Below are positions 19,051 to 63,957 of a stretch of DNA of 64,000 nucleotides, in pieces. Source of the stretch: Nereocystis luetkeana (Eukaryota; Sar; Phaeophyceae; Laminariales; Laminariaceae); contig JARUPZ010000011.1 in the NCBI GenBank assembly GCA_031213475.1, positions 2,604,001 to 2,668,000 of the forward strand, written 5' to 3'. Numbering within the stretch: position 1 is the stretch's first letter; every line of letters starts with the position of its first letter. The position numbers and the translations under genes were made by a program. Under the pieces are notes generated by a model. The model saw only the letters and a program-made list of their open reading frames with translations. It had not been told where the DNA came from and searched no databases.

Positions 19051-19409
19051 CGGTCGCCCCGGTGGTTCAAGTGGTTAACCTCGAATTCTGCTTGTGTTTG
19101 AGTTCTGGGTTCGAGCCCCAGGTGGGTCGGACATTTGACTTTATTTGCAAAAATAAAAATAAAGAAGGATTCAATTGTTGAGAACGCCTTGCAGCGTGGG
19201 TAGGCACAATTCGATGCGAGTCGACAAGGGAAGAAAAGGCTGAAATCTTCTCGCGATAAAAATGAAGGCACGTACCGTAGCGGGAAGGGGGTAGAAGAGC
19301 CTGCTATGTGACCCCGGATCTGAGTTACGAGTTGGAAGGAGAGAGAGAAGAAGATGTGCGAAGATAATAAATGGGATGATGAGCAAAAAAATAAAAAAAA
19401 TAAAAAATA
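19051..19409 (+). mobile_element. tRNA-derived SINE (family 1), full-length copy, plus strand
   Basis: The head starts CGGTCGCCCCGG, with A box TGGTTCAAGTGG and B box GGTTCGAGCCC. The family body follows, and the A-rich tail (19384-19409) is interrupted by T residues. It faces away from the minus-strand copy at 18355-18713, with the two heads about 340 bp apart. Confidence 0.93.
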
Positions 19410-27386: not shown

Positions 27387-29105
27387 AAACTGGCCAAGCG
27401 CATGCGGACGGAGCTGGAGATAGAAGATCGCTCCCATCGGCTACAGGTACGATCGTATTAATAGTCATGTCTTATCATACGAAGTATGTATCATACCATG
27501 TCATAATTTCGTGATGGTTTCTTCTGTGTTGTGATCTGCTCATCTTTGTCTACATCGCGGAAGTATAACCTTAATTTTGGCACCCACCAGCGATATAATT
27601 AGTGGTCCCGTGTCTGTTGCGCGCCCCCGCAGGGCCCCCTGGAGGGCCGTCTGTCGCCAAAAATTGCGATATATGCGCGAATATATGCCCGAAAACCAAG
27701 TAACAGTGTGTTTAAACGCCTCCCGAAAATTGAAAAGGTGTGTATCGAGATGCCTTGGGACCTGGGATGGCTTGGAGTAGAAACGAGCTGATCACACTTA
27801 CGTCCAGCATCGCTACACCAAGGTCAATCGATAAACAGAGAGAAACATACCGGTATACCAGGTATATTTGTTAATTTTCTATTATTAATAGCCATTCGCC
27901 ATAGTCGGCGACGTTCCCAACTCCGAGTCTCTTTTGTCGTTCCCACGTTACGGCTCGAGTAACACGCCATTATCCGCAGCAAACCCGAGGATAGGCCAAC
28001 TAACTGTGTGAAAAACGCCTTTTAAATGAAGTAACGACGAATACAGGAAAGCGCCTTTTAAACGTCTCTCGGCAGCGAGCGGCGACTAGAACTATTAATA
28101 TGTGCCTATAAAACAAGATATAGCCTACGGCGAACAGCAAGATGTGCCTAATTTTCTTTTGTTCTACGACAGGCGAATAGAAAAAAAGCCTACGAGTAAA
28201 AAAGTATGTCTTACCCGCGGCGAAATTTTCAAAAAGGGGGCTAAAAACAAAATGTCGTTAAAAATAAAGGTCAACTTGAAAAACGGTGTTTAAAAAAAAA
28301 CACCTTCGGCGAACAAAAAAGCCCGCAACAACAGCGCAACAGCTAATAATTGCACCTGGTACGCACTAACCCTATCGTATACCGTATCAGGTACCAGGTA
28401 TACGATATACGTACATACCGATTATGTTGTTTGTCTCGCGCTCAGTCTGGCGTCATGTTGGGCATGCCTCCGCTAGTTGACTTTATTTGTAGGATCGTTC
28501 ATAGGATCGTGCTTTACCCGCGACAACAGCAGCAGTAGTACACACGCAGTCGTATCCAGTTCGAGTCGCGTCCTGTGTAGTTGCTCGATGTTGGCAAGAA
28601 TACTTCACCGGCCATCCAAGAAAACAGGGTTTCAGGAATCCTCAGAGTATTGTACGCGCCCTCTCCTTTACGGTCGAGCGTGGTCGATTCCCGTACCTCT
28701 TGGAGTGTTTTGCTTCCGTAATAATTAGGGACATAATGACGTGTCTGTTCTTCTTCTTACTGTTGATTCGTTGTTGTGTTCCTTACCTGGTATTTCTTAT
28801 CTGGACTTGCACGTGCTTCCCTCCCCATGCTCATGCAGACGTTCAAGTCGTGCTTTGTCGGCAGCCATGCCGTGCGATGGATGATTCGGAACGGCTTGGT
28901 TTCAAACGTGAAGGAAGCAGAGACCGTCGGCGACTACCTCATCGACCATGGCATATTTTGCCACGTAGGCAGGACGCACATGTTCGAGAACTCCTCATTA
29001 TTCTACCGATTTGCAGAGGATTGGCCAGTTGCCCGAACATCGCCCAAGTTGATTATCACCAATGCGGCGACATCGGTCGCCCGCAAACTGCGCAAGGCGA
29101 TGTGA
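27387..29105 (+). CDS. DEP-domain protein, last two exons (5' end not found)
   Basis: Exon 27387-27446 encodes 20 residues, KLAKRMRTELEIEDRSHRLQ. A donor GTACGA follows, and the next exon runs 28839-29105, after TCATGCAG, to a TGA stop. Both boundaries are phase 0. The second exon has the heart of a DEP domain: TFKSCFVGSHAVRWMIRNG, then ETVGDYLIDHGIFCHV and SSLFYRFAED. It ends with a short basic tail, VARKLRKAM. DEP domains are helical modules that tether signalling proteins to membranes or receptors. The 20-codon exon corresponds exactly to exon 52747-52806 of the larger DEP gene, so the two are paralogs. No start codon is assigned. The intron holds several TACC(A/T)GGTA words. Domain call is firm; gene boundaries are partial. 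Confidence 0.85.
28090..28340. repeat. CGCC(T/G)NCGGCGAA-type palindrome-rich block in the DEP gene intron
   Basis: Short palindromic cores such as CCTACGGCGAACA, CGCGGCGAAA and CACCTTCGGCGAACAAAA recur every 50-100 bases in A-rich DNA. The same style is seen at 47340-47480 (CGCCTTCGGCGAACGAAAAA and TTCGCCTGCGGCGAA). Confidence 0.5.
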
Positions 29106-37400: not shown

Positions 37401-40400
37401 CCGCGACCCAACAGCTCACCATGGCTTTTTCGGACCCTAGAGAACTAAGGGCATCCGGACGAACTGTGTCCGACTCAGACCAAGCAATGCAACCGGCAAT
37501 GCAATCGACATCCTCACCGGATATCGATTTCGAGGCCAACAAACGCCGGAGCTTCTTCCAGACTCTTCCACAGTCTACCCCTACCCCAGAGGACTTTTTG
37601 AGCCGCTACCCACCGAACTCGTTCCCATTTCCCGAACCATCTATTTGGACCTTTGCGAGTCCATCGAGTCGACAACGACCTCGAGCCTACACCCACCGTC
37701 CCCCCCTCCGTTCGCGTCTTTCCTTCCGGTAACGACACGAGACTGGAGAATCTCCACAGGCATCAGCTTCGGGTTGTTCGCTCGGCCGCTCCATGCGCCT
37801 TTCCCGCCCGACGCGTTTCCAAAGAGTCACTTTTCTCCGGTCTTCGCGGTTTCCATCGAAACAGCCACCTGCCGACCACCCCCTGCCCTCGTTCGGCCGT
37901 ACGTTTTCCCACAGAGTCACTTTGCCCCGGTCTCGGGCTTTCCTACTGAAGCCACGGCCTGCCGCACAGTATATTTACCTCGGTCTTCACCCCTTCCACG
38001 GAAGCCTCCGCTTATCAGCCAGCCTCTTTGCGCCAGCCTCCACCAATTCCACCGACGCCATCGACGCCACCGCCTATCGACCGCTCCCTGCCCCTCCCAT
38101 TACGACGTAGTCTCCACCTATCGATGTCTTTCCTCCACGCCATGTACGACACTTCCCCGGAAACCCCCGCGACCCTTGGTGATGCCGATCACTCGGGGAT
38201 ATTAGACGCTCCCGTGTCAAAAACAATTCTGAGTTGGTCCCTCGACACCGTCCGAGACACTATCCCCCCCTTTTCACCGCCCACCTCGGCGACGCCGACC
38301 AGTTGGGAATGCCAACCGCTCCCCTCGGCACGGTTCCGCGACACCATTTCCCCCTTTTCACGGCCCACCTCGACGACGCCGACCAATAGGGAATGCCAAC
38401 CACTCCCCTCGACACGGTTCCGAGACATCATTCCCCGTTTTCACCGCCCACCTCGGCCACGCCGCCCATTTTGGGAATAGCAGCCGCCTCCTATTAAGTA
38501 TTGTATTGAATCAGCTCTCGACAAAGGTTCGAGACACTACTGTCCCCCTAACGGCTACCTGCGCCCAACCTGCATTTTCAGCTCCCCTATGCAATGTACA
38601 AGGCCACTTACGCCCTTTCTCGACCCAGCTGCTCAACCCATCTTTTTCCGGACCTAAGCCACCGATGGCCATTCAACATTCCTCGATGACGACCGAACCA
38701 CGGATTATACCTTCCAACTCCGATTCACTGGCGTCCAAGCACCCTTGCTTCCGTCTACACCGCATTTGCTTTGTCCATCTTGGTGCTCCACCGGCGTTCC
38801 GTCTTTCACCCTTCAGTGGACATGGTCCCTGCGACACGATAATTTCTCCAACATCGAGTGTTCTGTCGCCGGTGAACACCAAAACAGGTGCCTTTCGTAT
38901 TCCGTATTTTCGCATTCCCTTTCCCGCCCTTGGGGACATCGTAATGGAGCCACTGCCACCATTTATCTACGCTAAGCCTTTCTGTTGGCCTTCACCATCT
39001 GATCCCGTGGTCTGTTCTTTGCATTCATGAGTTTTCCGAGTTGTGTATCGGCTTCGGCGGGCTCGTTGCCCCTCCCTCCCGATCCACCACCACCACGACA
39101 CAGCTTGCTGTTTCAGAGGCTGTGTTCTTGTTTCATCCCTTACGAGCCTCCCGAGCCGGGTGTTGGCTTTCGTGGGTTCGTTCTCCCTCTCTCCCTCCCG
39201 ACCCATAAATTACCACTCCATTGCTCCCTTCTTCTGAGCCTGGGTTATTGTGTTTTCAGTCCACGACTCTGCCCAGCTGGGTATCGGCTTGGGCTGGCTT
39301 GTCCGTCCTCTCTTCCGACCAACTACCATTCTACCGCCCTCCTCCACCGACGAAGCACATACTGCGCGCGTTCCATACCGGGCATCGGCTTGAGTAGGCT
39401 TGCACCCCTCTCCCTCCTACCGCACTATTAATAGTACCATTCCGCCGCTGCCCTCACCGACGACTATTTCGTCGACGTTCTCCGTGACACATCACCCGTG
39501 GACACCTTCGATCCCGCCACAAAACCTTCGTCGGGCCTATTTCGGTCCCACGACATCGCTGGTGAGTCGCTCGGCAGCTCCATGAAAGGCACCGTGGGCA
39601 CTGATGCTCTTCCTGGATTGGATTTCAGGCCGCCTATCGTCTCCCCACCCTCCACCGTTGGCGCCTAGGTATCAGCCCTTTCTCATCCTTCGTCAGACCT
39701 TTATCGCTTCCCAGAACCGTCATCGCTCCGGCGCCGCCGCCGCTGGAAACCCTCGGATCACCGCCTACTATAGTTTTTCTCGCTGGATATCTGTAGCCAC
39801 GCCTTCAAGATCATGGATCCCCCACCGCCGTGCGATACCTGTAGCCACGCCTGCGAGATCATCGACCCCGGACACCTGTAGCCACGCCTTCAGGATCATC
39901 GACGCCTCTGCCGCCGTGCGAATACTTCGCAACCGAAGGTTCGCCACCACCTCAGTTCCGCCGCGGCACGTACCACCAAGTACCGCTCCAGATCATGCCC
40001 CTTCACCGTCTGCACGGTCTGCGCTGCCTCCAACAGGCGTTAGCGCGACTACGAGCAGCCTCATTTCGCATGAGGACGACACCGACACCTTCTTCACTGA
40101 CATCGTCCTGTACGCTCCACGCTCCGAAGCCCGCCGTCGAGCTTAATTCAAGATCATCCCGGAAATGATCTTCTGCACACCCTCCATACACAAGCTGCGC
40201 TCCATCTTGTGGAGTTCGTCGTCGAGCCTGGGGACGTCCTTCGTTGTTCCTGGTTGTTTTTTTTCCCGCGTCAAGAAGTTTTCGATTAAGTGGTGGGCAC
40301 ACTTACCACGCACCAAGCCCCTGTGCTTCGCCAATTTTCGATCCATCTCAATGGATTCCTTTCGCCCACCGCTACCTCATGTGCCAGGCGCACGACACTT

Positions 40401-43283
40401 GGCACCAAACGAGCCGCTCCCGTACCCTTTCCTTGCCACCACTGTACCAAACAGCCCCGGTATACGAGAAGCATCGACTGCCTTGGACATTCTACCACTG
40501 ATTTTTACCACTGCTTCGCCGACAAGCCGACTTTGCCCTTGCCGCTGTTAAACGGCCCCGGCGCCACCGTCAGCGCCCACCACTTCGACCCCTCTATACA
40601 ACCGCTACAGCCGCAGCACTAGCAAGTCTATCCTTTCATTAACGACACCAAATAGCCCCTGCGTCATTGCTACCGATGGGTCTTCATCGACGCACTTTAA
40701 TGCGCTGCTACAGCGTCAACCACCGTGCCTACATGCTCAACGCGGGAAAACGCACTTTTCACCGCCACGGCCTCCGCCGAGATTTTCTTCGACCAACCTT
40801 AATGGAGTACCACCGCCCCACCGCGAGCCAAAACAGCGCTTCCACTGCCATCCGCAAAGCCCACGCCATCACCGGCTCGCGCTCGAAACTTGCATCACCC
40901 CCAATCAAGACCACCCATTGCGTTTCATCGTACCATCCGGCGCCAACAGCGCTCGTACCGTATCGTCCGAGACCAGCATGCCGTCGTTGTCTCGTGAATG
41001 GAGCGTCGTAACGTGTTATTTTGAGACCTCCCATCGTGTTTCATCGGACCCTTCTTTGTAGGCCCCTACACCATCCGGTTCCGCAACGACCCTGACCCTA
41101 TCAAGATCAACCACCGGCCTGCTCACTCCACGTCTTAACGAAACGCCAACTACGGATCCGCGCGCCCGCAACGCCACAAGTCAGGGTGCCTTACTCGCGG
41201 GGTATAATCGCATTCAGACGCACCCCCCTGACCCCCGCGGCCGCCCTTGGCTAATCTTCAGTAGCAACGAGAACGTACATCGTTTCGGTTTTGCTTTTCA
41301 GTGTTCTCCAAGGTGTTTCTTCTTTGGTTTAACTTTTCGGTTTGTTCTGTTTTTTGGTCCGCACGACTGTAAGCGACTTGTGTTGTTATTTTACTCCAAC
41401 CCAGCAGCCGCTTGTTTCGCATGCAAGACTGTTATAGGCCCGCCTTCTGTTTTCCGCCGGTTTTCCTGGCCTCGTTTTTGTATATATAGGCCGCAAGTCT
41501 GTTGTGTGTCCCTACATTCGATTTTCCGCTGGTCTAGCTTGCTTCGTTTCCGAAACTACTACAATAGGAAGCTAATATTTCGAGTTTTGGCCTCCTATTG
41601 CCACCCGGTTAGCTTGCTTCGTTTTCATAGCAGGGTGCAAAACCGTCGTGAATTATTTCCCTTGACCTTTCCTCTTGGCCTACGAACGTAGTTGGCGCTT
41701 GTTGGAACTGTGCCTCTTTTTTGTTTCTGTTTTTGGGCTGCACAAGGCGCCCCGTTTCCAACTGTTTTGAGCAATCATATGATTTTGCGTCTGTTACGTA
41801 GTATGTGTGCAGTATTGGCTTCATACCGGCCTTTCAGGGTCTCACGTGCTCGACCCCTCGCTGCGAGCATTTCCAAGTGGTACGATAGTCAACGACCCCC
41901 CTTTCCGGCTTACTTACGCGCAGCACGATAATCTCCGGGTCCAACGTTTGTTTACGAGCCTCTTTTTTCGGCTTTCTTTTCAGTATGAGTGTTCTCGAGT
42001 CCAACGCCTCCCCCCTTTTCGGCTATCTTTTAGTATCAGCTCATAAAACCGCTGTATTTTTGTCTGTCTGTTTCTCAGTCCGCCTTTTCCCTTCCCTGCA
42101 CCATGTGCATGATGGAAACGTTTAAATCTCCCGTGTTCTCCGCGTTCGCGCCACACGGGTATTTGTTTCATTTTCGCATTTCTCTGCGTAGTTCTTTCTC
42201 AACTCAGCCCCTATCGTTCCTGCGTATCAGCTTCCGACCGGGCTGGCCCCAGGGTAGCCTCCTATTGATGGAGTCAGGCGTTATCGACTCGCAGCTCCCC
42301 ACTACGTCATAGCCCCTCAGAATCCCACGATCGTTGTACACCTTCGACCCGTCTTGGTATCTTAGCAGCATAAGCCTTCGGTATTTTTCCCGCCTTCCAG
42401 AGTTTTTGGTTTTGCTTGGTGTCTTCGGTAGTTATCGTCGTGTTTAATACACTCTGAACTTCTATTTGAGTGTTCGGTTCGCCCTTCTTTTCTCCAGCAC
42501 GAAGAGCGTGCGTATTTGTGATTTTGCTTCAGCCAGCCACGGCCGGCTTAGCTAGCCTAAAACCCTGTCACAGGCCGTACGTAAAACCATGGACTTATCG
42601 TAACAACACTATGGCTTTCACCGTCTCGTTTCCCCCTTGCTCTACGCGCTTGGTAGAAGCATATATTTGTTTTGTGAAGACCCCGTCTTCATTTCTTTTT
42701 GGATGTTTGCTTGTTTTTCGACGCACTACCTGGTATGCTTAAGCGCGTTTCAAGGTGGACACGTCGATACTCCCCGGTCTCTCATCGCGATGCACCAGTT
42801 CTTGTCTTTTTGCTGGTCTGGCCCCTTCCTGTTTCGTTTTGCGTGTTTGCTTTTTAGGCATTCTTCCGTGCGTATCAGCTTCAGCTATCGATGTTTTAGA
42901 GATTGCCTCTCAAGGCATTGCACCACGCCGTAGGCCATTGACTTCCCGTTGTTAGCCCCGAAGGTTCCTCGTTGTTGTCCCCTGTTTTGCCTTCGCGGCT
43001 GGCTTTGGTAGCCTCCGGCGTTCCGTTCTTCGATTCGGCCAAAGGCCTGTCTAGCCTCTCAGGTCCCACGCTAGGCCCCCTGCATTCATCGCTTTGTAGA
43101 GTATGCTTTGTTATTTTTTTACTTCCACGCTAGCCTCTCAGGTCCGGTCCGTTACGGACACTGCCTTGATGGTTCTTAGCGTGCCTTGCTTTCTCTCTTG
43201 GCTTCCGGCGAGTTCCTCAACGATCGCCTCATCATGTATTATATATATATATACCATAGATACAGTCTGTTATTTATAGCACG
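34487..43283. other. Long pyrimidine-rich tract with degenerate tandem repeats and no recognisable gene
   Basis: The plus strand is C/T-rich for almost 9 kb, and translated frames are Pro/Ser/Arg-rich. Internal repetition is visible. A unit of about 84 bp occurs three times at 38241-38480 (28-residue unit including TPTSWECQPLPS / TPTNRECQPLPS). A unit of about 90 bp occurs twice at 37800-37970 (FPKSHFSPV / FPQSHFAPV). Units with GTAGCCACGCCT occur three times at 39785-39905, and units with ATCGGCTT recur at 39045-39400. From 41340 to 43150, short units with GCTTGCTTCGTTT or CAGACTGT-like words recur. No RT, integrase or other domain is convincing. It may be an old satellite-like or retroelement-derived block. 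It almost lacks the TACC(A/T)GGTA word. Confidence 0.5.
38241..38480 (+). repeat. Tandem repeat, three units of about 84 bp
   Basis: Each unit begins CTCG(A/G)CAC(C/G)G and contains TTTTCAC(C/G)GCCCACCTCG and GGGAATGCCAACC. Unit starts are at 38241, 38324 and 38408. The third is degenerate at its end. The unit is a multiple of three and is open in one frame (150 codons, 38028-38480). Confidence 0.8.
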
Positions 43284-46200
43284 AGTAAAAAAATGTGGAC
43301 ACGGGTGGACACATCGATCGCTTTTTGTTTTTTTCTGGCAAAGCAGCAACAACAACGACAACAACGGAAGAAAACCGAAACTCCGTCCAGGGAGCAGCGG
43401 TGGCAACTGGGGTGGCAAGTGTGACCGAATCAGAGGAAATAAGTGGCCCCACGTTGCGCCCGGAAGGGGGATTTAACCCTCGGGTAGTTTTTGAGGTCAG
43501 AAATTCTCGCAACGCACTATCCGAAGCGGGGAGTGACCATCTGTGTTTTCCGCACCTACATACAGTCCATCATCAGGACCCAACCTGGCCTAAAACACTT
43601 CGGCGCCGGTATCGCAGCCTTCTGGAGGAGAGAGGTCGATGAGGCTGACGCCTTCCCGCCGGAGTTTAGGGAAGTCTTTCCGCAGTCAAACCTCACGGCC
43701 TTGGGGGGAAAATGCCGCCCGATTTGTGTGGGGATGACGTGGAGGTGCTTTATGCCGCCTAGTATTATGAGAGAGTGGAGACCGAGTAGTAAAGAGCTCA
43801 ATCCCGAAGCAAGGTAGTTTGGGGTTGGGGTGTAGGGAGGGGTAAAGTATGTAGCGTTACGGGCCCGAACACACCATGAGGCAGGCAACTTGATCATCCA
43901 GACAGACGCGCTTAACGCGTTCTACTCGGTCCTACGGAAGCCCATGCTCGAGCAGGTGGCCGCTTGCACGCCAGCGCTTACGGGGTTCGTTGCCAAGTGC
44001 CACGGTGAGAGGCCCACCTCAGTGTTCTTCCAGATGGAGTCGGGAGAAAGCACTCAGCTCGAACGATCCCGTGGGGGGAAATAAAGAGACGCTATGGGCC
44101 CGGCTCTGTTCTGCCTGCCGCTGCGGCCGGTGCTTACGAGGGTTCGCGAGGAGTACTTGTAGCAGGGGGTTGCAGGCTATGCGTACCTAGACGACATCAC
44201 TATCACGGTGCCCACAAGATATCACCCGGGACGGTGGGAGTGGTGCCCTTCCTCGAATGAGAGTTAGCAGCGAGGGGAAAACACTGCAACCCGGGTAAGA
44301 CAGTTGCTTTGGCCCCGGAAGGGACTTGTGCCCACCCTGGAAGAGGTGTCACTTTTGGCAGAAGTGGGTGTCCGCATCGCGGACAAGGGAGGGATAGAGG
44401 TGGTTGGGGTGCCCGTCAGCACTGACGAGTTTGCGATAGAGAGCGCGATAGGGATCGTGCGAGAGAGGGAGGCAGAACAACTCGCGCGGATGGTGCCACG
44501 AATGCCGGAGAAACAAGCGACCAACCTCAATAGCCACCGGCTCTATAGTGCACCGAACGGCGTATGTCGAGTGGGTGATGGGACCCGAAGCTGTCCCTGC
44601 CAACTTGTCGACGGGCAGATAATGGCGCAACGTGGATGCTCGAAAACCTTCTCGAGTTTTCTGGGACAGCGGGGGGATCGCAGTTCTTCTAGGAGGGGTG
44701 CATGGCGGGAGGATTTGCACTGATACCCCACCAACGTGCGGAGGCTAGCTTATCAACGGGGGTCGAGGGGTTCGGAATGTCGTCGGTGGAAGCGAGAAGG
44801 ATGTCCGCATCGACAGGGAGCTTGGTGGCAACGCTGCCCGCAGTCCTAGCTGACCTCTCCGGCAGTCTTGGGGGAGAAAGTACGGAGGAATCTACCGGAT
44901 TCATAACTAGTGGCCGATATTTGGGAGGGATTGCGAGGCCTTCGAGATGATGGCGGGGTCACTGAAGAGGAGGTAGGTGGGTGGAGTAGTGCCGGGCAAC
45001 TGGAGGGACAGGGTATTCCGCCCCCATGAGGTAAGCGCATCCGGGAAGTTGGATAGAGAGTGTTGGCAGCACACAACTCCGAGACCATTAACTCACACAA
45101 AGCCCAGAAAAACTCGGAATGCAGGCCAACCGAGTGCGTTGCGACCGGCAAGTCACATCTCTGGACGGACTCCCCATCCATACCCGCTCGCCGGAGGAGG
45201 TCGGTCTTTTCGGGGAGAGCGATATCCGGGAATGCGCAAAGGCCAGGCAACGGAGCCAGTCAGGACCAGGAGCTGCCGCGTGGTTACGAACGAGTTCTGT
45301 AGACGCTCAACGCGCCATACCGTCCCAGGAGTTCCTGTACGCAGGGCGGCGACATCCCATTAATAATAGAGATCGAGGAGAACTTAGCCACGTGTTTTAC
45401 CTGTAGTGCAGCGGACGCCAACACGTGACATGTACGTTTGTCACCGCGCGAGCGCACAGATGCATCAACACCCATCGTTGGCCCACGCGACCTCCCGCAT
45501 CCTGAAGCGGATGTCCGTCCACCGCCACGTCGAAAGCGGTGCGCCCTTTGACGCCGACGGGGACATACGTATGGCTATCGATATCGAGAAGAGACGTCTC
45601 CGAGACGCGTCGACATCGACTTTCTGACACAAAATCTTACTTGTCGACGTCGCCTACGCGGACCAAACAGGATAAACTGCTTCCACCTCTGAGGTGCGAA
45701 ATTACGAAATTACAACCACTACGCTCGTATTGGACATGCGCCCTTCGACGAGCGCAGCCACAAAAAAGTCACAATTGCGATGAAAAGCTATGGGCGTCTT
45801 GGGAGAGAGGGAAGCGAAATCATCGATCAGCTGGCGACGAGTCTGGTCGGAGGAAGGGACGGGGGGCAATGACCACTAAAGGCATCTGCGAGGAACGCCT
45901 TCCACGTATATTTTCAGTACAACCTCGCAATACGGGACCGTCAAGCGACTAGAAGGAGGAGGGAAGAGGAGGGATGCTGATGCCGATGGCTTGGGGTTGG
46001 CACGTAGATGCTGAGTAGGAATTTTTAAGCGCCGGACGGACGAAGGCTAGTAAGGGATTGGATATACCATGCCTAGAGTGGGTAAGAAAATGAGAGTGAG
46101 GATATGTTGCTCGGGAACATTGCCGCAGGCCGGTGGTTGCGAAGAATCTGTATCTAAGAAATGTATCGATGTTTTCATGAGGGTAAAGGTAGTTGGATGG

Positions 46201-50907: not shown

Positions 50908-53900
50908 ATGGCTGGGATGGACAAGGAGTTGATGGAGGAGGAGATCAAGGTGCCAGAAATTGTATTCAGAAACGTTGTCTTGGGCCGTCTGGCAAGCTTT
51001 CCGGAGAGCTTTGGGATAGTTTGGCTTTTGTTTGGGTGCGGCGCGTGTGTAACCCTTTCGCTCCTTGTAAAATAGCAGCCGGCTTTAGAAGCGGAGATTA
51101 TCGTGTGATCTGCAGAGCGGGTTGCCCGCGTGCTCACCTTCTCTCACGCGTGTTCTCTCCTTTCGCGTGTAGTAGCGTTTGCGGTATTACAACCGATTGT
51201 TGTTGCTATAGGCAGGTATCAAAGGTACATTATATTTTGTTTCGCAGACATAAATATGGCACTCCGAGACGGCGCCTTGCTGTCCTACTATTAATAATAA
51301 TTGCAAGACCCGGGAACAAGGCGAAGCTCATGTCCGGCGGGGTGTTGCTATTTATCCGACTCGGTGTTACACGAGGTGCTCGTCGTGCCATGCCCTCATA
51401 ATGTACCGTTAAACTTTGTCGTAGACGGTAGACTACAGCAACAACAGCAGTAGTTTCAGGTTCTGGCCAGGAAGGAGAGGATTGCGCTGCGGTGCAATGT
51501 GGCAGGGAGATTACGATATTTCACGGTGGAATGCGGTCCAACCTCAACACCACAACACTCCCTCCCCTCCCGCCCTCGAGCTTCTATCGATGAATGATGT
51601 GTACAACTGCTGTACTCGTAGAACCTGCTACCTGGTAGCTCGTGCGTGTGATGAGATGATATGATGCTCGAGGTGTCGCCTGTCGCGCCAGAAGTAAACT
51701 ACTACTGCAGTATTTTGTATTTTGTGGACGTACATGTTTCGCACATCCAACCACCATCTGCCATGTTGTGCATATGTGCATGGCATGATCGCTACACATT
51801 GATATGAGTGTTTGTGCACTCCCGTCTTTTCTTTGTTTTTTTCGTTTCCCTCTTCCCGTGTCTTTCCGTCGAGCTTATTATTTGGCGCCATATATTACAC
51901 ATTTGATTAGACTAGAAAGAGCATATTTCATACACTGGGTACTTGGGACTTGCACGATGTCGACTGGTGAAAAACGGAGCACACACACACCTGGCTGGTT
52001 GTTGTTCCCGCCTCTCTATAAGGTGGGCAGAGATGGGGTCAGAGGACGGGCTCCAATATAACTCTGAAGTCATGCTATTATTAGTATTACCTATGCGCCC
52101 CGGTGGTTCAAGTGGTAAACCTCGAATTCTACACGTTTGAGTCCTGGGTTCGAGCCCCGGGTGGGTCGGACATTTGTCTTTATTTGCAAAAATAAAAATA
52201 AAAAAGGATTCAATTGTTGAGAGCGCCTTGCAGCGTGGGTAGGCACAATTCGATGCGAGTCGACGAGGGAAGAAAAGGCTGAAATTTTCTCGCGATAAAA
52301 ATGGAGGCACGTACCGTAGCGGGAAGGGGGTAGAAGAGCCTGCTATGTGACCCCGGATCTGAGTCGCGAGTTGGAAGGAGAGAGAAGAAGATGTGCGAAG
52401 ATAATGAATGGGATGAGAAAAAAAAAAAAAAAAAAATGCGGAGGGATGGTGAAAATCGGTTCTGCGCTTCAACTCTTACAACTCGAAACGTATCGTATAA
52501 CGTAAAATCAACGACTCTGCTGATGGGTTGAAGCTACGATAGTGGTAATAGTATTATTTCTGGTATTAATATTTATAGTAGTGTGCCTGGCATTATACAT
52601 CGAAGAGTTTTAATATTGATATTAATAGTGCATCGACGGAAAGGTCATTATTAATAATAGCACTCACTGACCGAGTAGCCCTGACCTCTCTCTCTGTCGT
52701 ATCGTCGTGCCCCTCTCTCTCACAATGCGCGCATGAAACATCACAGCGCCTTGGGGAGCACATGCACAGAGGACTGGAAATCAAGGACCGCACCTACCGA
52801 CTCCGAGTGAGTGCCAACCAAGCCCATAACGTATACGTACACCTGTTATATTGTTATATACTGGTACCTGGTACTGAATTATACCTGGTACTCTGGCATG
52901 TGTTTAACCCTCCACGTGCTCGCACTATGAATAACACAACCCTGGTCTGGCGGGGCGGGTATCCGCCGACATGGACATACGGACATGGATAGCTTTCTTT
53001 GTCTATTTTTCAGCAAGTGTTTGGGATTGGGGAGCTGGTTGGGAGTATCTTTCGTCCATGGCTTGTGGCCGTTTTTTTTTTTGTATGTCTTCTGTACTTG
53101 TAAATCATGACTATTAATATTTCGATTCGAGGAATACTGGTAAATATCGTAGCGGAGGACCTTTGATAATCTGGGAGAAGGGATCTTTAGGTTGGTAGGC
53201 TGTTCAGGTGTTTTGGTTCTTTTTGTGATCAAGGTACCGGCGAAGACCCAACCCAACCCCTGACTCTAATCCTCACCCCAAACCGCAGCCAAAACGGGCC
53301 AAAACTCGCCATAAACGCGGCGTTTGCATCGAACCAGGAAATTTCCCAGTTGCGGACGACGATTCCGAAGTGCAGACCACGCTACCCATTGTTCAAGTCA
53401 AAAACATCCCTAAATATCCCTTCTCCCAGATTGCTAAACCTACTCTCGTAGCGTCCCTCTCTCGCGAAATGAATTATTTCAACATTTCACCAACCCCCCT
53501 CGTTTTGTCTTTTGGTATCATCGCATCCTATCCTATCACATATCACAAGAGGGACGGGGGGGAGGAAAGAGGAAAGGCGAACATAAAACAAGCCGTTGGT
53601 CCCCAGTCCCCAGCTCCAAAATTTTGCGATTAATATCAACATTAAGACGAGGACTTGATACGCGAGTAACTCCGTGGCACGATTAGATGAATATGTTGAA
53701 TAAGTGATTTTTTATGATATATTGTTGGTCGGTCGGTCGGTCCCCAGGTTGACCTTCTCTTCATAGGCAGTAGGGTCTAGCTATATCTATATCTATATGT
53801 AATAAATAGCTGTAGACAGAAACTCCTCGTCATGTGTGTACCTGCGATGGATGGTTCACGAGTACTGAATAGAATTCATACCTTGTTTTTTCGTTGTTTC

Positions 53901-56900
53901 GGAAAAACTACTAGTACTGAAAAAGATTGATCGCTACTCGTACTCGTATTAGGGCCCATCTTTTTTAACGGGGAACGCTATTAATAATGATTGGAAATCA
54001 TTTTTTTAATTTCGATGAATTTTAATTTGGTGTAAAAAAAAAATGTGTTTGTGTCGGTCACCGGGAACGGCGTATTAGGGCCCATCTTAACGGGGAACGC
54101 TATATGGAAGAGAATTTTTAATTTCAATGAATTTCAATTTATCCCGAAAGAAAAACGTGTTTGTTTCCTATCGAGGAACAGCGTACTATTTTAATAGTTG
54201 TCCATCAAAAAAAAAAATCTGACTTACCTGGAAAAACGCGCCGCGTCACACAACGCCCAGCCGATAAACAGCGACGCGCGCAGACGAGAGCAAAGGTTTG
54301 CGTTGTCGCGTGCGCGCCGCCGCTAGACTCCTTTTCTTTTTGGTCGCGCAGGATAGGAAGCTATCACTTGCAGGGTGTCTTGGGTGGGCGGACGAAGCCC
54401 TCAAGCGCCACGTGCGGAACAGCAGCGGTGATGCAGCTATCGAGGTCTCGAGCGTATCCTCCCTAATTTTGCTCGTTTGCTCAGTTTTCGTGATCGTTGG
54501 GCCGATCGAGCAGGCCGAAAAATTGAGATTGCGGCCGCCATGATTACTTTTGAGGCGCCACCGCCGGGGTACGATGTGCTATGGTCTGTGGGCATGGGCG
54601 CGGCTATTGCTTCGTCACCTACCGTTGAGGTTCGCGTTTTGTCGCCTCGATCGTGGTCGCGGAAGCGGCCAAGAATCGCCCCAGACTCCACCGAGGGTGT
54701 TGACCCACCATGAACATGCTACGTCAAGACCCGAGGAACTCCCAAATTCCAAATTGAAATTAAAAAAAAACACACGAAAAAATTCCCAAAAGACTTTTCA
54801 CTCAAATTCAATTTTTCTAATTTGCCTGCTTGGTGATCCGCTCGTCGGCCAATCAGATGCAACTTAAATTAGAAAAAAACAAGAAAACAAATTGAAAAAA
54901 ATGAACGCACCGCGTCACACAACACCCAGCCGACAAACAGCGAGGAGCGTAGACGAGAGCGAAGATTTGCATTGTCGCGTGCGCACCGCCGCCAACCTCT
55001 TTTTATTCTTGGGTGGACGGACATAGAGAGCCCTCAAGCGCCACGTGCGGAACAGCAGCGGTGATGCAGCTATCGAGGTCTCGAGCGTATCCTCCGTTTT
55101 TCAGCTCGTTTGCTCGGTTTTCGTGATTGTTGGTCGATCGAGCAGGCCGCAAAATTGGGCTTGCGGCCGCCTTGATTATGTTTGAGGCGCCACCGCTGGA
55201 GTACGATGTGCTATGGTCTGTGGGCGTATGCGCGGCTGTTGCTCCGGTCACCTCTCCTTGAGGTTCGCGTTTTGTCGTCTTGTTCGTGGTCGCCGAAGCG
55301 GCCAAGAATCGCCCCAGACTCCACCGAGGGTGTTGACCCACCATGAACATGTTACAACGAGACAGAGGAACGCCCAAATTCCAAATTGAGAAAATCACAC
55401 GAAAAAAGCCCCAAAAGAATTTTCACTCAACGATTTTTTTTGTTCGCCTTGAGAATGCCTGCTTGGTGATTCACTCTTCGGCCAATCAGATTCAAATTAG
55501 ATTAGAAAAAAAAAGTCAAATAAAATAGAAGAATTTGAAAGTCCTCGATAAGATGGGCCGTTGGTAGTGCGGTTATCCACGAGTTCAACAATAAGGTGTC
55601 TGCGCATACCAGGTATTATTTTTGTTTAGCAAAGATTTCCGTCGGCAAATATTGTACGTCACGGGACAGCTTTCGCGGACTTTAATTGCGCGCCGCGCAA
55701 TGTATATAAGACCCCTGTTCTGGCTAGCACTGGAGCAATGTATAGTCGTTCCCATTGACTAGAGCCAACTTTTATGAGAATCCTCGGCAGACATCGGTCG
55801 ACAAAACCAACGACACCGTCATGAAATCTGAACGTAATGCGCTGGTGAAGGTGTCCGACCCACCCTAGTGTCACAGTGCTCACACCTCGGTCGGTAGCGT
55901 GGGCTGACCAGGCGTTTGATTGAAAAAAACTTTTGGCCCTTGTCTGCAAAAAACAGACGATAAAAAGTCTCGACCCCTCTCCGATAGCAAGAAATGTACC
56001 ATTTTTCAGGTTTGACATCGATCGACAAACCCAACGATTACGTCACGAACTCTGAATGAAGCGCGCTGGTTAGAGGCTACGACCGACACTATAGTAGTAT
56101 CACAGTTCTCACACTTCGGTCGGTGATATGTGGCGTGGGTGGGCCAGGCGTCGTCTCCTAAAAACACAAAAGAGGACTTTTTGAAAAAATTGACGAAGAG
56201 CGTAGGACGCCGCGGCCAACCTATCGCCCCCTAGACCACGGACGCCAATGATGCCTCCAAGGCCATCATTTTCACTCATTGGCTTTGCCCGGTACGAAAG
56301 TCGTTCATCGTGGGTGGATTATATGTCGAGATCGAAGGTCAATCGTCGCGTGACTGCGGGTGTGCTGCGAGCTGTGTCTTTCTTCTTCTAGTTATCGTGC
56401 GGCTTGATTTCGCGTGGTTCCCGTTAATACAGCGATTTTATTGGAAGATGGCTCCCGTCGTTCGCGTTATTTGAGCCGTTTGATTGGAAGATAGCTGGCG
56501 TCAACTGCCCCGTGTTATTTTACGCTTGCCAATTCCTCCAACTTTGGAATTTTTGGGAAATTGTACTTGATTAAGGAGGCGTTTTGTCACCAGTTGTGAA
56601 CGTCTTGGAAAGCAAAAATACGAGAAGAGCTAAATTTTGATTTTTACCCAGGGTGAAATCGAAAATCGACAATCGACATGATAATAAACAAGGCGCTGAT
56701 TAGTCCCTGTTCAAAACATGTTCCTCTTCGTTTCTTAGGTTCCGAGAAAATGAACGATTTACAACCCAATGAAGAAAACTAGAAGTTGACGGCTGGAAAT
56801 CGAAAAGCAAATCGAAAGTAAGAACAGCAACAATTCAGCGCGTCGTACTGGTCGGCGCAGCCACGTCAAAATATCACATCAGGACCGCCGTACACTGCAT

Positions 56901-59900
56901 CCAACCCACAGCTATTATAGCACGGCAACATGGCCGCACCCCCGTAAACAGCCAGCAGGCGAACCACAACACCAGCCCCGACGTTCTCGGGCCTTTGTTT
57001 CCCGGCGTTCGAGCCTAAGCGCACATATTTATAGGTTGAGGGCAGTTGAGCATGAAACACTCAAGTACGAGGTCGGAAGTTTGTTCTCAGTATAATTTCA
57101 AGTTTGATCTAGGGGCGTCAACGTTGGACGCGCCGCCACCTCCATGGGAGCCCCAACGACCTCCCGGAATCGAAATGCCGTCGCGCTTGGCTGCTTGTGT
57201 GGTGGGTCTGTGTTACCGAGCGCTAGATTGCCGGCATATGTGCACAGCGAACGGCGGCCCAAGTAGGTTGTGCTCTCCGTTGCTTTTCGCCTGGATTTCT
57301 ATTTTCACTTGACGATTCTGTTGGGACACCTCGGCTAATTTTAATCGAAATCGAAATGAATTCGATATACGATTGCGCTTTTTTATTCCGTGTAGACACA
57401 CCCTCATTCGGAAAACCGGGAAGATCTGGAATGGATTGAAAAAATGCGCCAAAAACACCCCCGAAAAAAATGATGAAAAAACGCTCTGATAATTCAGGCT
57501 CTAGAATCTAACTCAGAAATGGAGAGTACAGCAGTACGTAATACATCGGAAAATAATACATGTACAGTATTAATAGCAGTATTTCCGGGAGACACCGAAA
57601 AAATCCCCCCATACAGGATGGAGAAGATGGCGTCGAAATCGGAAGGGGAAGAAAGTGGAAGAAGAAATCACCGAAGAGCAACTATGAATAGCACCGGTAC
57701 AGCAGGCAGTGCTTGGAGATATAGAGCCAGCTGTGTTATTAATAGCCACAAAGCCGGATTTCTTGATATGGCCCTACCTTTACCTTGTTATCTTAATATC
57801 GTCAAACCTCCTTTCATAACACGTCTCTTGACGGGTTGCCCGCCCACCCTCTGCACGTATACTTCGACTCCACTCTACCTTTTTCAGAGTTCGACTTGAC
57901 TGTACCCTTTTCGGAGGTGTTTGGTAATCACATAATCATCTAATCAATGATGTTGATGCTTGATAATCTCGAATTATCGATACGACGCGCTTATGCTCTC
58001 GCCACTTGCTTGCGCTCCGCAGACGTACAAGCAATGTTTCGTGGGCAAGGATGCCGCGGATTGGCTCATCAAGAACAGCTCCAAAATTTCTTCGAGCGCA
58101 GATGCGGAGGCAATCGGCAACCTCCTCATGGGTGAGCCCGACAAACCGCTCACCGACCAAACGACTGCTGTAGACTGTTACATTCATTCCTCCATAGTCC
58201 TGGTAGACATATACGAAGTATAGCAGGTATATACGTCAGGTTCAACAAATAAACAGATGCTCCCAGTACCTGAGAATATTTCGGAGAGAGCATACTGCAG
58301 GTACTTGCAGTACTCGCAGTATTTCGGGAGTCTGACACTGTGGAAAACTGCTGTTTTTCGAGTATTGCAGGGTTCTAAACTCCGGGTACTGCCAAGTAGT
58401 GGCAGTTTTCTGCCCGTTGCCACTGCGAGTACTCGGCAGTACCAAAACCCTCTCACATACTCGTAGTTAATCGGATTATGACGCATACTCAGTACCGAGA
58501 ACGTATACTGGGAGCATCCGTGCAACCTTTATTGTTTATGCTTGGTGATTTATGAGTAGGCTTTACAATCTGTGAACCCGGATCTTTCGGGGTGTTTTTT
58601 ACTTCAAAATGACGTCGCGCTGTCTGCACTTCGGAATCGTCGTCAAAGCAATTGAGAGAAAAAAATGGTTCGATGCTAACGCGGCGCAGCCGTGTTTATT
58701 TCCAGTTTTGGCTGCGGTTTGGGGTCAGCGTTATAGGGGTTGGGCTGGGTCTTCGCGAGTACCTTAATCCCAACTGGAAGCAAATACCTGAACAGCATTC
58801 CCACCTAAAGATACGGGCTCACAGATTATAATGGGACCTCTGATTTATTGTGATCACGAGCTTTTTTGTTCTTTCTTGGAATCTTTTTGTCTTCTTTCTG
58901 GTACATCGACCTCGCCGCGATTATCGGCTCGGATGTGAGAGCGCGAGGTTTCGATGTTTCTATACACACCCACAAGAAGAACAAAAGTCTTCGAAAACAG
59001 CGCGCGGTCTCTTGTCGTCCCGCGCACAGAAGTCTTATCATTTGTGGTTGATCCGATGGTCTACGGGTACACGATGGTGATATCGCTACTGCTGTATATC
59101 TGTACCAGGATCATGCCTGGTGTTCCGATACAGATGACGTACGGTATCGACGCCATCGTTAGTAATATTTGTTCTTGTTTTTCGTAGTCCTGCAGGGGTC
59201 CGATGGTCTAACCCCTCATCTTGGCCTCTGTTTTGGTTTTTTGTTCAGAGCTGGACTACTTCAGCCACGTCACGAGGGACCACCCCTTCCAAAGCAACGG
59301 ACTCTTCTACCGGTTCACAGAGGATGCCCACACAGGAGGAGTCGCGGCCGACGAGTCCGGCAAAAAGGTAAGGGCCTTAATTAAATTGAAGGCTTATCAT
59401 ACGTACCTATAAAGTTGGCACCGGCTGATTTCACGTTTCAAACAAGGGATGTGTAGCAAAACCGCAAAATGTGGAAACCGCTCGCAAGAACGCAACACCC
59501 GCTGCCCGACAAAACGTGCCAAAACATACTTAAGGTTTTTGCCAATGTATGGAAGCGTTCTCCATCTGGGACCACACAAATCTCGAAACCGCAAAAAGAT
59601 GAAAGATACCAGAGGCGGAGAAATTGCACCGACGTGCAAGGTTATTCAGATTCGCACGTGAATTCGTGTATAGCGGCAGTTGTTGCAGATTTGTATGGCC
59701 TACATGGTACCGTTGTTGTAGACATGTACCAGGTATGGCCTACATGATATCGTACATGCTCCCAAACGGGATCACGGCGTGAGGTGGGGTGAGCCTCCGG
59801 CGGCTTCTGCGGAGGGCTGATTATATTTCTGCACGACTAAGCGGGAGCAGGGTGCCCACTGGGATGGGCCCACTGCGAGGTCAAAGTACTACTGGGACCA

Positions 59901-60677
59901 GGTTGCCAGGTGGTGCAAAATAAACGTGCATATCCAAGAACCTTGCACGTACGTGCAAAATCTCCGCTGGTGCTTGACTCCAGCGACTGATGCTACGATT
60001 TCCCTGAAACCTACGTACATTCAGCACAAACTCAAATGTCGGCGACTGACTTTTCGTTTAAAATTTAAAATGCTCGAGCTATAGAACTTTGGTGATTTTG
60101 GCGGCTGATGCTCCCGTTTCACATCTTTGCATGGTCATTCAATTATCGTCGGCTAAGGTTAAGCTTCACCCTCGTGGTTTGTGGTGCTCAGTGCAGTATT
60201 CGCAACAGGTTCTGCTTGCTTCCCAATCGACTCCTCCGTCCTGCTGTAGCGTAACTTGGCCACACCATCATTGTCCACCTCTTTCTTCACGCGTTACGCT
60301 ACGAGTATGCTGCTGGTGCTGTAATGTGCTCACAGACAGCGTTCTTTGTGGGTTTGTTGATTATTTCACCAGGCAGGGTGTGGCGTTGTTGTTTGTAGCA
60401 CTTCGCCTGCAGATTCGACCAGAACAAATAAACTTGACCCGTTTAGTACTGCAGTCCCGTTTTGGGGACAAACCAATTGGAATTAAAGGTCTTTACCCCC
60501 AAACCGGGACTGCCGTACGAGAGGGGTTAAGTCGATCCGGGTCATGCGTGCGTTTCCTGAGCTTCGCATTCTTTTTGAGTCAACCATGTTGATCGAATGT
60601 TGAATATTTTCTCCCCTGTGCTCCATCCAATGGTTGTTCTTGATCTTACTCGTATGTATGTGCCTGTGTGTTTCTAC

Positions 60678-60741
<64 letters not shown>

Positions 60742-63700
60742 GTATTTTCACATTCGTTAAACCGTTGTTTCTACCGGTCGACATCGTAAACCTGCTTTGG
60801 TAGCAAGTACCATAAGTATCAATATTAATATTATTACTAAATGCGTAAGAGAACAAGATACGAAGTGCCACCGCGCCATCCCAGCGACGACTTTCCTACC
60901 CGAGCTATTCCAAAGAGCAGGTTACCGTTTACATTTATTAATAGGTATTAATAGTGTTGAATTGAACCCTTTAGAAGCGCAGTCCCGTTTAGGGACAACC
61001 CACTCACACGTACCTGGTATATAGTTCGTCCCCAAACGGGACTGCAGTCATGGAAGGGTCAACGAACACTACTCAAATACTTCCCGTACCCATATCTGGT
61101 ATCGAGTCGGCGTCATGGGGTTCTGCTGTTGTACGTAGCCTCCACATGGCCGTGTGATTTTTTTCTTGTGTGTAGACCTATGCCAATGGGACAGCGAAGT
61201 ACCTGGTATCGATTAAAAGTTTGAATTTCAAAGATACCCTCCAAAAAGAATTAGAACACGCTTCCTATGGGCACGTTTAGAAAAAAAAAAGTTCCTAACT
61301 TTTGGAAAAGCCCGAAAAAAGCAAACATCGGCTTGAGAAAATTCAGGCCGCTCTTTGGCTCGAAGCGGCGAGATTCCGAGTCCTCGACAGGCATCGATCA
61401 ACAAAACCAACGATTGCGTCAAGAATGCTGAACAGAGTGCGCTCATTAGGGGCTCCGACCCACCCTAGAGTCACCCGTCTTCACGCCATGGCCGGTGTCA
61501 TGTGGCGGGAGCTGACCAGGCGTATAATAAAACAATATTTGGCCGCTGGTTTACACAAAACAGAAAACAAAACTTCTCCATCCGTCTCGAATGGCAAAAA
61601 ATAAAAGCTTTTTTTCAGGTTTGGGAGGATACCGTAGGACGCCGCCAGCAAGCTCTCGCCCCTTAGACCATGGATCCACCTGATATCTTCGAGGCCGTCA
61701 TCTATATTTGTTGGCCTTGCCAGATACCGAGCGGGTTGGCTGTGGGCTATCTATGTCGAGATTGAGCGTCGATCGTCGCACGAGCTGGTTTCTATCACCG
61801 TGTGACAACTTGCAACCAGAAAAACACAAAGTGCGCCGCCTGCAGCCGTTGGGGAAGAAAAAAAGAAAAAATCAAACATTTTTTCGGCTGTTCTTTGAAA
61901 GCAATATATTTGAAAAAATAAATTGGGCTTCGCGTTTGCATTGGCATAGGTCTTATAGCTCAAAAGACACAAACTGCTGTCGATGTATATGATGTACTTA
62001 TTACACTACACGCCAGTCCACGAGGGAAGATCCGAAAGTGCTGAACCCTTCTGGCTATCTATTACCAGGTATATGAATACGTAGTGCTATTAATAGTGCC
62101 AGCCAGTGCTGCAAGGCACCTATTAATACTTACATACCTGGTACCTACATACCGCCGTAGTGGGAAGGGGAGTGGGGGAGAAGAGTCTGCTCTGTGACCT
62201 CGGATGTTACAACAGCAGTAGGAATGACGGACAGCGGTGTTGTATTGTATTGTGTTGTTTGATCATGTCATTAGAGGGGAGCAAAAAGGGCGACGATAAG
62301 AGCATGGAAAGAACAAAAAAGAGAGCAACGGAGGCGCACACAACGAAACGGGTGTACAGCAGTATTTAGTAAGATATTCGCATACGTAATAGATTGAATT
62401 ATCGCTCGGCGTCTGCACCTTCCCCGCTGCTGTCGAGAAAATCTGATTCGAAATTCGTCCGAGGGTGTGTGTGTTATCTGTCACTCATGATCACTCTTAT
62501 CTTGATTGGTGCAAACCATACGGTATTAACTTAGTAACTTATTAACTTATTAACTTGGACTTATATGTCCAATGCTGTTGCCCTTGCCGTTGGCCGACAT
62601 GCGTCGAACAGGATTCGTGGACGCTTCTCGCCACGCGCCTCTTCCCCACGACCTCTGGAGGTGAAGCCCTCACCCAGGCCGACCTGGAAACCGTGGTATC
62701 GCGCGATGCCGACATGATCGACACCCTGGTTGACATCGGGGTGTCACCCATCGACGAGCACAACACCAAGCTCCTCGACAACGTGCATCCCGCAAAGTGG
62801 AAGGACGCCGAGCCAGATGGGGTCAGTTACATGAACATGCAGCCGAGTCTACAGCAGTAGATAGTTTACCGCCCAAACGCGTTTGGATGCCAGCTGCCCA
62901 AGTAACAGATTTCACCGATGAAGTTGGGATAGACGAGTACGGCATATCAGTACACTCCTAGGCCCCCTTTCGTAGAGGGCCGTTCCCACGCTGCCGTATC
63001 ACATTTCATACAGATGAAGGAAGGGTAAGGGGCAACTCCCGTCCTGGATGTCGACATGTTTCGCTCCGGCTGTCGTCAGTCGTCACTTTGCCACTTATTG
63101 TCGTCGTGATGGTGTCGTGCTGTTGCTCCCTCCCCTCCCTTCCGCCTTGAGGCAGACGTACAACCTGGTCGCCATCGGAGCCGGAACCGGAGGTCTGGTT
63201 TCTGCCGCAGGGTCAGCAGGCGTCTACGCCAAGGTCAGATGCCGCGGTGTTGCTATATCCGCTGTGATTGGCATGATATCGTGCCCCAGTAGTACAGCCT
63301 TCGCCAATTGCCCCCATCCTGCATCCTGCATCCAATTTATACAAGGGTGCGTGGTAGGCCGTTTCGCCTCTACGGCCAATCACGACCGCTCCAAAGATTA
63401 TGCCTTCGCAGCAAAATCTCTACGGCAGTAGAAGATCGGCACGTCACGTTTTCCCGACAACCACAGCAAGATGCAGCGCCAACGGAAATAGAAAAATAGG
63501 TACATAAACAAGCGGCAATGCAACGAGAGCGCGATGCGGCATTCGAAAGCAATCGCTCTTACCCGTAAGGAACGTCAGTCTGTCTCAATCAAGTCTCACA
63601 CGTACAAGAAAAAAACCCGGAAAAAAACATACCAGGTGTAGTAGTCGGCGCTATGTCTCTACAGCAGTACCAGTACGTACGTCGACGAATCCTGGAACAT

Positions 63701-63957
63701 TGCCGGGACCGACCCCAACAATTCCAGCTACTCCAATTAATAACTCCTGCACCCTGCACTGCTGTTTGCGCTTTCTCGCTACTATTTTTGTGTAGGTTGC
63801 TCTGATAGAGAACCACCTTATGGGCGGCGATTGCCTCAACGTTGGCTGCGTTCCGTCCAAGGCCCTCATTTCCGCCGCGCGAGTGGCCCACACCGTCAAG
63901 AACAGTGAGGCTTACGGGGTGGAAGTCACGGGATATGTCACCGTCAACTTCGGGAAG
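50908..63957 (+). CDS. DEP domain fused to FAD-dependent pyridine-nucleotide-disulfide oxidoreductase (3' end beyond window)
   Basis: Proposed exons are 50908-50949, 52747-52806, 58023-58131, 59249-59367, 62612-62821, 63156-63233 and 63796-63957. All have AG/GT borders, and phases match throughout (0,0,1,0,0,0,0). Exon 1, in an ACCATGG context, gives MAGMDKELMEEEIK and is the least certain. Exons 2-4 form a DEP domain: HRGLEIKDRTYRLR, TYKQCFVGKDAADWLI, then LDYFSHVTRDHP and GLFYRFTED. Exon 5 gives an acidic leader with GVSPIDEHNTKLLDNVHP. Exon 6 has the FAD-binding GAGTGG after YNLVAI. Exon 7 has GGDCLNVGCVPSKAL with the redox-active Cys pair, as in mercuric-reductase and lipoamide-dehydrogenase relatives. 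The NAD(P) and dimerisation domains lie outside the window. Individual domains are certain. The join between exons 4 and 5 is inference. Alternatives are a DEP gene ending at the stop near 59412 and a separate oxidoreductase starting at Met 62555. Confidence 0.72.
52094..52436 (+). mobile_element. tRNA-derived SINE (family 1), full-length copy in intron 1
   Basis: The A box is TGGTTCAAGTGG (52104-52115) and the B box GGTTCGAGCCC (52147-52157). The body matches the other copies and the poly-A tail is 52418-52436. ATGCG occurs just before the head and again right after the tail, consistent with a 5-bp target-site duplication or part of one. It lies in intron 1 of the DEP-oxidoreductase gene. 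Confidence 0.93.
53236..53380 (+). repeat. Dispersed repeat, inverted partner at 58612-58765
   Basis: GAAGACCCAACCCAACCCCT, ACCGCAGCCAAAAC and GACGACGATTCCGAAGTGCAG all recur in inverted orientation and order at 58612-58765. Both copies lie in introns of the same gene. Confidence 0.7.
53945..54190. repeat. Two-unit tandem duplication of about 126 bp
   Basis: TATTAGGGCCCATCTT, AACGGGGAACGCTAT and AATTTC(G/A)ATGAATTT recur at an offset of about 126 bases. Confidence 0.75.
54232..55515. repeat. Direct tandem duplication of about 0.65 kb in intron 2
   Basis: Unit 1 (about 54232-54890) and unit 2 (about 54900-55515) align over their full length with an offset of about 669. Shared blocks include CGCCACGTGCGGAACAGCAG, CGAGGTCTCGAGCGTATCCT and GACTCCACCGAGGGTGTTGA. 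Reading frames in the units are not conserved between them, so neither is likely to be a gene. Confidence 0.85.
55785..55930 (+). repeat. Interspersed repeat family (CGATCGACAAAACCAACGA type), copy 1, partial
   Basis: It shares ATCGGTCGACAAAACCAACG, CCGACCCACCCTAGTGTCAC and GGTCGGT...GACCAGGCGT with the copies at 56009 and 61384. Confidence 0.65.
56009..56375 (+). repeat. Interspersed repeat family, copy 2
   Basis: It has the same opening as the neighbouring partial copy (ACATCGATCGACAAACCCAA) and continues with GTAGGACGCCGC, CGCCCCCTAGACCA, GGCCATCATT and ATGTCGAGAT. This full order recurs at 61384-61800. Confidence 0.7.
56376..58022. other. Rest of intron 2
   Basis: No exon-like segment is recognised here; a 126-codon frame starting at 57519 has no domain and is probably chance. 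Confidence 0.4.
58256..58518. mobile_element. MITE-like element with 13-bp terminal inverted repeats in intron 3
   Basis: GATGCTCCCAGTA at the left end is matched by TACTGGGAGCATC at the right end. The interior is rich in GCAGTA/TACTGC and CGAGTA words that can pair. No coding capacity. Confidence 0.6.
58612..58765 (-). repeat. Dispersed repeat, inverted partner of 53236-53380
   Basis: On the plus strand it begins CTGCACTTCGGAATCGTCGTC and contains GTTTTGGCTGCGGTTTGGGG and GGGTTGGGCTGGGTCTTCG, the complements of the blocks at 53236-53380. Confidence 0.7.
59775..59905 (+). repeat. Body fragment related to the tRNA-like repeat at 10740-10999
   Basis: CTGCGGAGGGCTGATTATAT and AGCGGGAGCAGGGTGCC match the minus-strand body at 10790-10870. 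The tRNA-like head is absent. Confidence 0.5.
60434..60530. mobile_element. piggyBac-like foldback MITE, copy 4
   Basis: TTGACCCGTTTAGTACTGCA and the inverted end (CTGCCGTACGAGAGGGGTTAA) flank GTCCCGTTTTGGGGACAAAC. One end keeps TTAA while the other has become TTGA. Located in intron 4 of the DEP-oxidoreductase gene. Confidence 0.75.
60678..60741. repeat. ATT trinucleotide microsatellite
   Basis: About 21 uninterrupted ATT units, in intron 4. Confidence 0.95.
60962..61062. mobile_element. piggyBac-like foldback MITE, copy 5
   Basis: TTGAACCCTTTAGAAGCGCA to CATGGAAGGGTCAA, with internal arms GTCCCGTTTAGGGAC and GTCCCCAAACGGGACTGCAG. A TACCTGGTA word sits in its central loop. Confidence 0.75.
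61384..61800 (+). repeat. Interspersed repeat family, copy 3
   Basis: It follows the same order as 56009-56375: GCATCGATCAACAAAACCAA, CCGACCCACCCTAGAGTCAC, CTGACCAGGCGT, GTAGGACGCCGC, TAGACCATGG, ATGTCGAGATTGAGCGTCGA. Located in intron 4. Confidence 0.72.
62157..62207 (+). mobile_element. Small SINE (family 1) body fragment
   Basis: CCGTAGTGGGAAGGGGAGTG and GAAGAGTCTGCTCTGTGACC correspond to the SINE body, with several substitutions. Neither head nor poly-A is present. Confidence 0.5.

Follow-up and report, generated by a model that had tools for sequence, protein, structure and literature searches.

The DEP domains of EPAC, P-Rex1 and DEPTOR stand beside guanine nucleotide exchange factor (GEF), cyclic-nucleotide-binding or mTOR-binding parts. 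A signalling module is also found on a disulfide oxidoreductase of the wider superfamily in Bact_Pyrredox, where a bacterial pyridine-nucleotide oxidoreductase is joined to tandem cyclic-nucleotide-binding domains (PMC2246266, in the available portion of the text). A membrane module is the partner in the VTT/DedA (COG0398) systems, and the accessible part of PMC10127716 reports that COG0398 DedA proteins are most often fused to PF07992 and PF02852, which are also the domains of the enzyme described here. In a stretch of 64,000 nucleotides from Nereocystis luetkeana (Phaeophyceae, Laminariales; assembly GCA_031213475.1, contig JARUPZ010000011.1 or C11, 2604001-2668000; hereafter the window, whose numbering is used below), a first-pass annotation had proposed a gene with very large introns, in which DEP exons precede exons of a mercuric-reductase-like FAD enzyme. 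Our analysis suggests that the locus is one gene of 16 exons, probably encoding an NAD(P)H disulfide reductase docked by its DEP domain at a membrane or receptor; we consider this whole reading the best explanation of the sequence data and a fairly likely one.

The predicted protein resembles EPAC, P-Rex1 and DEPTOR in its DEP sequence and in a basic loop like that of EPAC1 (the loop was compared by eye), but carries a redox enzyme instead of their other parts. It differs from Bact_Pyrredox, which is prokaryotic and has another signalling module in another order, as far as the available portion of PMC2246266 describes it, and from the VTT/DedA systems, in which the same oxidoreductase family adjoins, or is fused to (PMC10127716, accessible part), a multi-pass VTT domain and not a eukaryotic DEP domain. 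Each half belongs to a known family. Among the papers listed in our literature searches, as judged by titles and the openings of abstracts, none describes a fusion of DEP with a disulfide oxidoreductase; such a fusion may well be already present in public annotation.

Gene model and the junction of the two halves

The seven exons in the window (50908-63957) splice in frame to give a chain of 260 residues, and nine more exons lie beyond the window edge on the same contig, as far as 70181 when numbered from the window start (L007 1424-7181), giving a full model of 16 exons (50908-70181, + strand) that encodes 660 residues and is terminated by a stop codon. To place the exons past the edge, the same contig was searched by tblastn with a bacterial relative; splice sites and reading frames then guided their completion by hand. 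Features inside the window are summarized in Table 1. The positions proposed by the first-pass annotation for the DEP exons (through 59367) and the oxidoreductase exons (62612-63957) on the + strand agreed with our model, as did the phase-0 junction between them (donor AAG/gtaagg after 59367, acceptor aacag/GAT before 62612) and the length of about 5.2 kb for intron 2 (5216 bases).

Table 1. Features of the putative fusion gene within the window (a slash marks the exon-intron border)
Feature	Position	Strand	Description
Exon 1	50908..50949	+	start Met and N-terminal helix (MAGMDKELMEEEIK); ATG context ACCATGG; donor AAG/gtgcca
SINE headed by a tRNA	52096..52436	+	inside intron 1; head called tRNA-Val(TAC) by ARAGORN
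Exon 2	52747..52806	+	DEP N-terminal strand and first half of the basic loop (..GLEIKDRTYRLR); alignment with PDB DEPTOR starts at residue 16
Exon 3	58023..58131	+	DEP core (TYKQCFVGKDAADWLIKN..); DEP match in genome search at C11:2662020-2662130
Exon 4	59249..59367	+	DEP end and linker start; donor AAG/gtaagg
Intron 4	59368..62611	+	3244 bases; junction of DEP and oxidoreductase halves; contains repeats
Exon 5	62612..62821	+	linker (34 codons before the only in-frame ATG) and oxidoreductase N-terminus (DEHNTKLLDNVHPAKW..)
Exon 6	63156..63233	+	FAD-binding GAGTGG motif
Exon 7	63796..63957	+	redox-active disulfide GGDCLNVGCVPSK (Cys219, Cys224)

As read from the DNA, the predicted product has both domains, the redox cysteines and a full-length enzyme, joined along a splice path that keeps the frame. 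The Pfam DEP domain (PF00610) was matched over its whole length (profile 1-72 of 72) at residues 23-93 with an E-value of 2.6e-21 and 75.8 bits (gathering threshold 32.7), and in the full protein Pyr_redox_2 and the dimerisation domain were matched at residues 183-504 and 527-635, respectively. The start of Pyr_redox_2 was also matched in the 260-residue chain (Pfam, 3.1e-8), in which both Pfam matches are well past chance.

Some borders of the model are less regular. The acceptor of exon 2 (intron 1) is poor, as 20% of AG sites score equally well; that of intron 12 is weak (13%), and the intron after 64549 requires a GC donor. Between the stop before 50755 and exon 1 there is no in-frame ATG, and the coding log-likelihood of exon 1 is +17.9 bits, although this exon was part of its own training set.

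The proposal that the DEP and oxidoreductase halves form a single fused gene is partly supported. The donor at 59367 ranks among the best 1.1% of GT sites. The only in-frame ATG of exon 5 is at 62714. With a coding model trained on the other exons, the 34 codons that separate this ATG from the acceptor at 62612 scored +7.1 bits; of 3260 open windows in introns 1-4, none scored as high. For the 22 codons that precede this acceptor, the score was -20.2 bits. In intron 4, no coding-like phase-0 first exon was found, the one candidate running from an ATG to a phase-0 donor (of reasonable strength) having scored -19.7 bits. Two observations weigh on the other side. The acceptor at 62612 is of mediocre strength: it is equalled or bettered by 4.9% of AG sites. 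Coding scores at the level of the linker occur in 273 of 17830 (1.5%, + strand) and 336 of 15557 (2.2%, - strand) open 34-codon windows at positions 1-50000. The equal phase at the junction is weak evidence for fusion, since phase 0 is found in 12 of the 15 introns that the full model has.

Two adjoining genes would consist of a short DEP protein, ending near 59412 by read-through of the donor, and a separate oxidoreductase starting from the ATG at 62714 (MIDTLVDIG..), with either a promoter of its own or a first exon that is not coding. Read-through of the donor meets a stop after 14 codons, and the ATG lies about nine codons before the start of the match to the NCBIfam model NF004991 (residue 153, profile position 7), where the bacterial proteins begin; the mediocre acceptor would also suit this arrangement. 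However, the strength of the donor and the coding score of the 34 codons, with its sharp drop upstream of the acceptor, argue against two genes, which we regard as improbable. The single fused gene thus appears to be the better-supported reading, by its strong donor, its coding-like linker and the lack of a coding-like phase-0 first exon in the intron.

The two halves and their relatives

The enzyme half passed NF004991 (FAD-containing oxidoreductase) at residues 153-659 with 712.8 bits against a cut-off of 620 (profile 7-507 of 509). It did not pass the MerA model TIGR02053 (377.1 bits; curated cut-off 454.45) or the dihydrolipoyl dehydrogenase model TIGR01350 (355.5 bits; cut-off 408.8); these two are among the 24 other models listed (of 28 matched), all of which were below their own cut-offs. 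We compared its residues with those of 30 bacterial relatives, leaving out L016, L017 and L018, which are below the family cut-off. The redox-active CxxxxC pair, Cys219 and Cys224, is present, and these two residues, Cys494 and Tyr625 are identical in all 30. Neither the predicted fusion protein nor any of the 30 relatives has a cysteine in the last 40 residues.

The label 'mercuric-reductase-like' is therefore restricted to the fold, because the C-terminal cysteine pair of MerA is lacking; as a statement of enzyme identity it was not borne out, given also the score below the MerA cut-off. A true mercuric reductase, which would make the fusion a metal-detoxification protein, would be in line with the top PDB match, the mercuric reductase 5x1y (2.5e-76), and with Tyr625, which aligns with the MerA tyrosine where other family members have histidine. 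In MerA, the C-terminal vicinal cysteine pair passes Hg(II). The absence of this pair, the low TIGR02053 score and the lack of an N-terminal metal-binding domain among the domains found in the full protein make mercuric reduction highly improbable.

The closest described enzymes are the bacterial NF004991 / PRK06370.1-3 oxidoreductases, the 30 Nitrospirota members showing 47-52% identity and the conserved redox cysteines and Tyr625. In contrast to them, the predicted fusion protein has about 150 extra N-terminal residues with the DEP domain. It also has Ile at residue 377 with Arg immediately after it, whereas Glu stands at 377 in 27 of the 30 relatives. In this superfamily, Glu at this position presumably goes with NADH and the following Arg with NADPH, and a shift of the cofactor preference towards NADPH is possible because of this replacement. 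Genome searches covered the assembly of 465 Mb in 1987 contigs. With the N-terminal half of the enzyme, the matches were confined to the fusion locus and a weaker site on C16 (56 residues at 46% identity), so no second copy was seen for comparison.

The relatives were taken from genomes of one phylum, that of the Nitrospiraceae relative L001, where 49 of 148 passed the NF004991 cut-off. A scan of genome contigs gave two relatives, of which L002 is a more distant enzyme, and viral contigs, scanned with each half of the protein (enzyme and DEP) and with alignment A1, yielded none. Neighbours were counted at the 30 best loci above the cut-off by tblastn with a protein of L001 that is itself VTT by Pfam. 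A VTT/DedA gene lies directly upstream on the same strand at 24 of the 30 loci, the match at L047 being weak (27% identity, 1e-17).

We also reconstructed a tree with 30 relatives, without L016, L017, L018, L048 and L049. The fusion enzyme grouped with the six relatives that show no VTT gene nearby (split support 1.000), and its place inside that group was poorly supported (0.204). Upstream sequence of about 1.4-1.5 kb was inspected in five of the six and about 0.5 kb only in L019. Two relatives from Pseudomonadota (2 of 100 genomes of the phylum of L002 passed the cut-off) also have no VTT neighbour. These absences count against the proposed reading: the membrane partnership is a trait of the wider family, not of the nearest subclade seen, and the analogy with a membrane partner is indirect. 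Note that the Pseudomonadota sequences L048 and L049 have Phe at the position of Tyr625 and CINVGC instead of CLNVGC at the redox site. An apparent VTT-oxidoreductase fusion in L034 (open frame of 859 residues) was rejected, since the Pfam VTT match is outside that frame.

The closest DEP domains in the PDB are those of DEPTOR (1.1e-17), P-Rex1 and EPAC2, with E-values from 1.1e-17 to 2.2e-14. DEP residues 27-38 (KDRTYRLRTYKQ) are identical at 7 of 12 positions to the polybasic loop of EPAC1, RDRKYHLRLYRQ, and keep five basic residues, as aligned by eye; in the accessible part of PMC10338474, this stretch of EPAC1 (residues 75-86) is named the polybasic loop of the predicted membrane surface. 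Membrane recruitment through the DEP domain, which the first-pass annotation had suggested, is therefore plausible from these nearest relatives and the basic loop. A further hint comes from the VTT/DedA neighbours in bacteria. According to the same part of PMC10338474, the EPAC1 DEP domain by itself fails to bind the plasma membrane; in EPAC1, then, the loop is not enough, and this again speaks against docking on lipid. Within one fused gene, the DEP domain might instead be a protein-protein adaptor (for a receptor tail, a kinase or a scaffold) or an internal regulator of the enzyme. The failure of the isolated EPAC1 domain would agree with such a role, and DEPTOR, the closest PDB relative, is an mTOR-binding protein by its PDB molecule name; however, the basic loop is kept (by eye) and a membrane protein is the partner of bacterial relatives, and we consider the adaptor possible though unlikely.

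Four places in the whole genome matched the DEP model, including exon 3 of the putative fusion gene. DEP sequence is also present on C22, where the correct reading frame was not obtained. A second DEP exon lies at 28824-29102 of the window, about 22 kb upstream on the same strand; it is terminated by a stop (Pfam, 6.6e-18), and its upstream exons were not found. At C27:5324883-5325089 (L009), a DEP domain is contained in an open frame of 849 residues, the start of which resembles the end of a protein kinase domain (by eye).

Introns and the remaining window

The large size of the introns, as first annotated, was confirmed, and repeats make up at least part of them, so their size needs no special function. 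The repeat in intron 1 has other copies in the window at 7866-8210, 18364-18709 and 19055-19401 and a partial one at 4967-5166; ARAGORN calls a tRNA in the copy at 52096 alone. The tRNA is the head of this abundant repeat, and a functional tRNA gene in intron 1 was therefore rejected. Genome-wide, 1047 first-look candidates of the short interspersed nuclear element (SINE)-like repeat were found, and identities of all 40 scored copies lie at 93-100%, which points to recent activity of the family. Intron 2 contains a tandemly duplicated block of about 0.5 kb (54235-55515, about 85% identity) and has repeats in common with intron 3 and also with intron 4.

Elsewhere in the window, the region 36001-44000 has a GC content of up to 57% and a GC skew down to -0.24, unlike the remaining sequence. 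The long open frames at 15075-16484 (- strand) and 73-633 (+ strand) resemble pieces of retrotransposon reverse transcriptase (by eye).

Proposed function and significance

From its N terminus, the protein would have a helix, the DEP domain (23-93), about 60 residues of linker and a complete class-I pyridine-nucleotide disulfide oxidoreductase (153-659) of the NF004991 (PRK06370-like) type. The dimerisation domain suggests that the enzyme is a homodimer, in which electrons would pass from NAD(P)H to FAD, to Cys219-Cys224 and then to some disulfide or other acceptor. The two DEP domains of the dimer may dock the enzyme, through the basic loop, on an anionic lipid or a receptor tail, and reduction would then take place at the membrane or signalling site.

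The localisation of redox signalling is commonly ascribed to the sources of oxidants. A reductase with its own DEP docking module would put the reducing side, too, at a membrane or receptor. The fusion would be a eukaryotic counterpart to the pairing, reported in bacteria but unexplained, between DedA membrane proteins and the same oxidoreductase superfamily, and the question of which substrate such enzymes meet at membranes would become testable in two very different settings. As a tentative and rather doubtful scenario, a eukaryote may have taken up a bacterial disulfide reductase that has a DedA lipid-scramblase-like partner in many bacteria, dropped the partner, shifted from NADH to NADPH and added a DEP domain, giving a reductase drawn to membranes in response to signals from lipids or receptors. 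If true, this would be a direct link, at the protein level, between membrane signalling and thiol-disulfide control.

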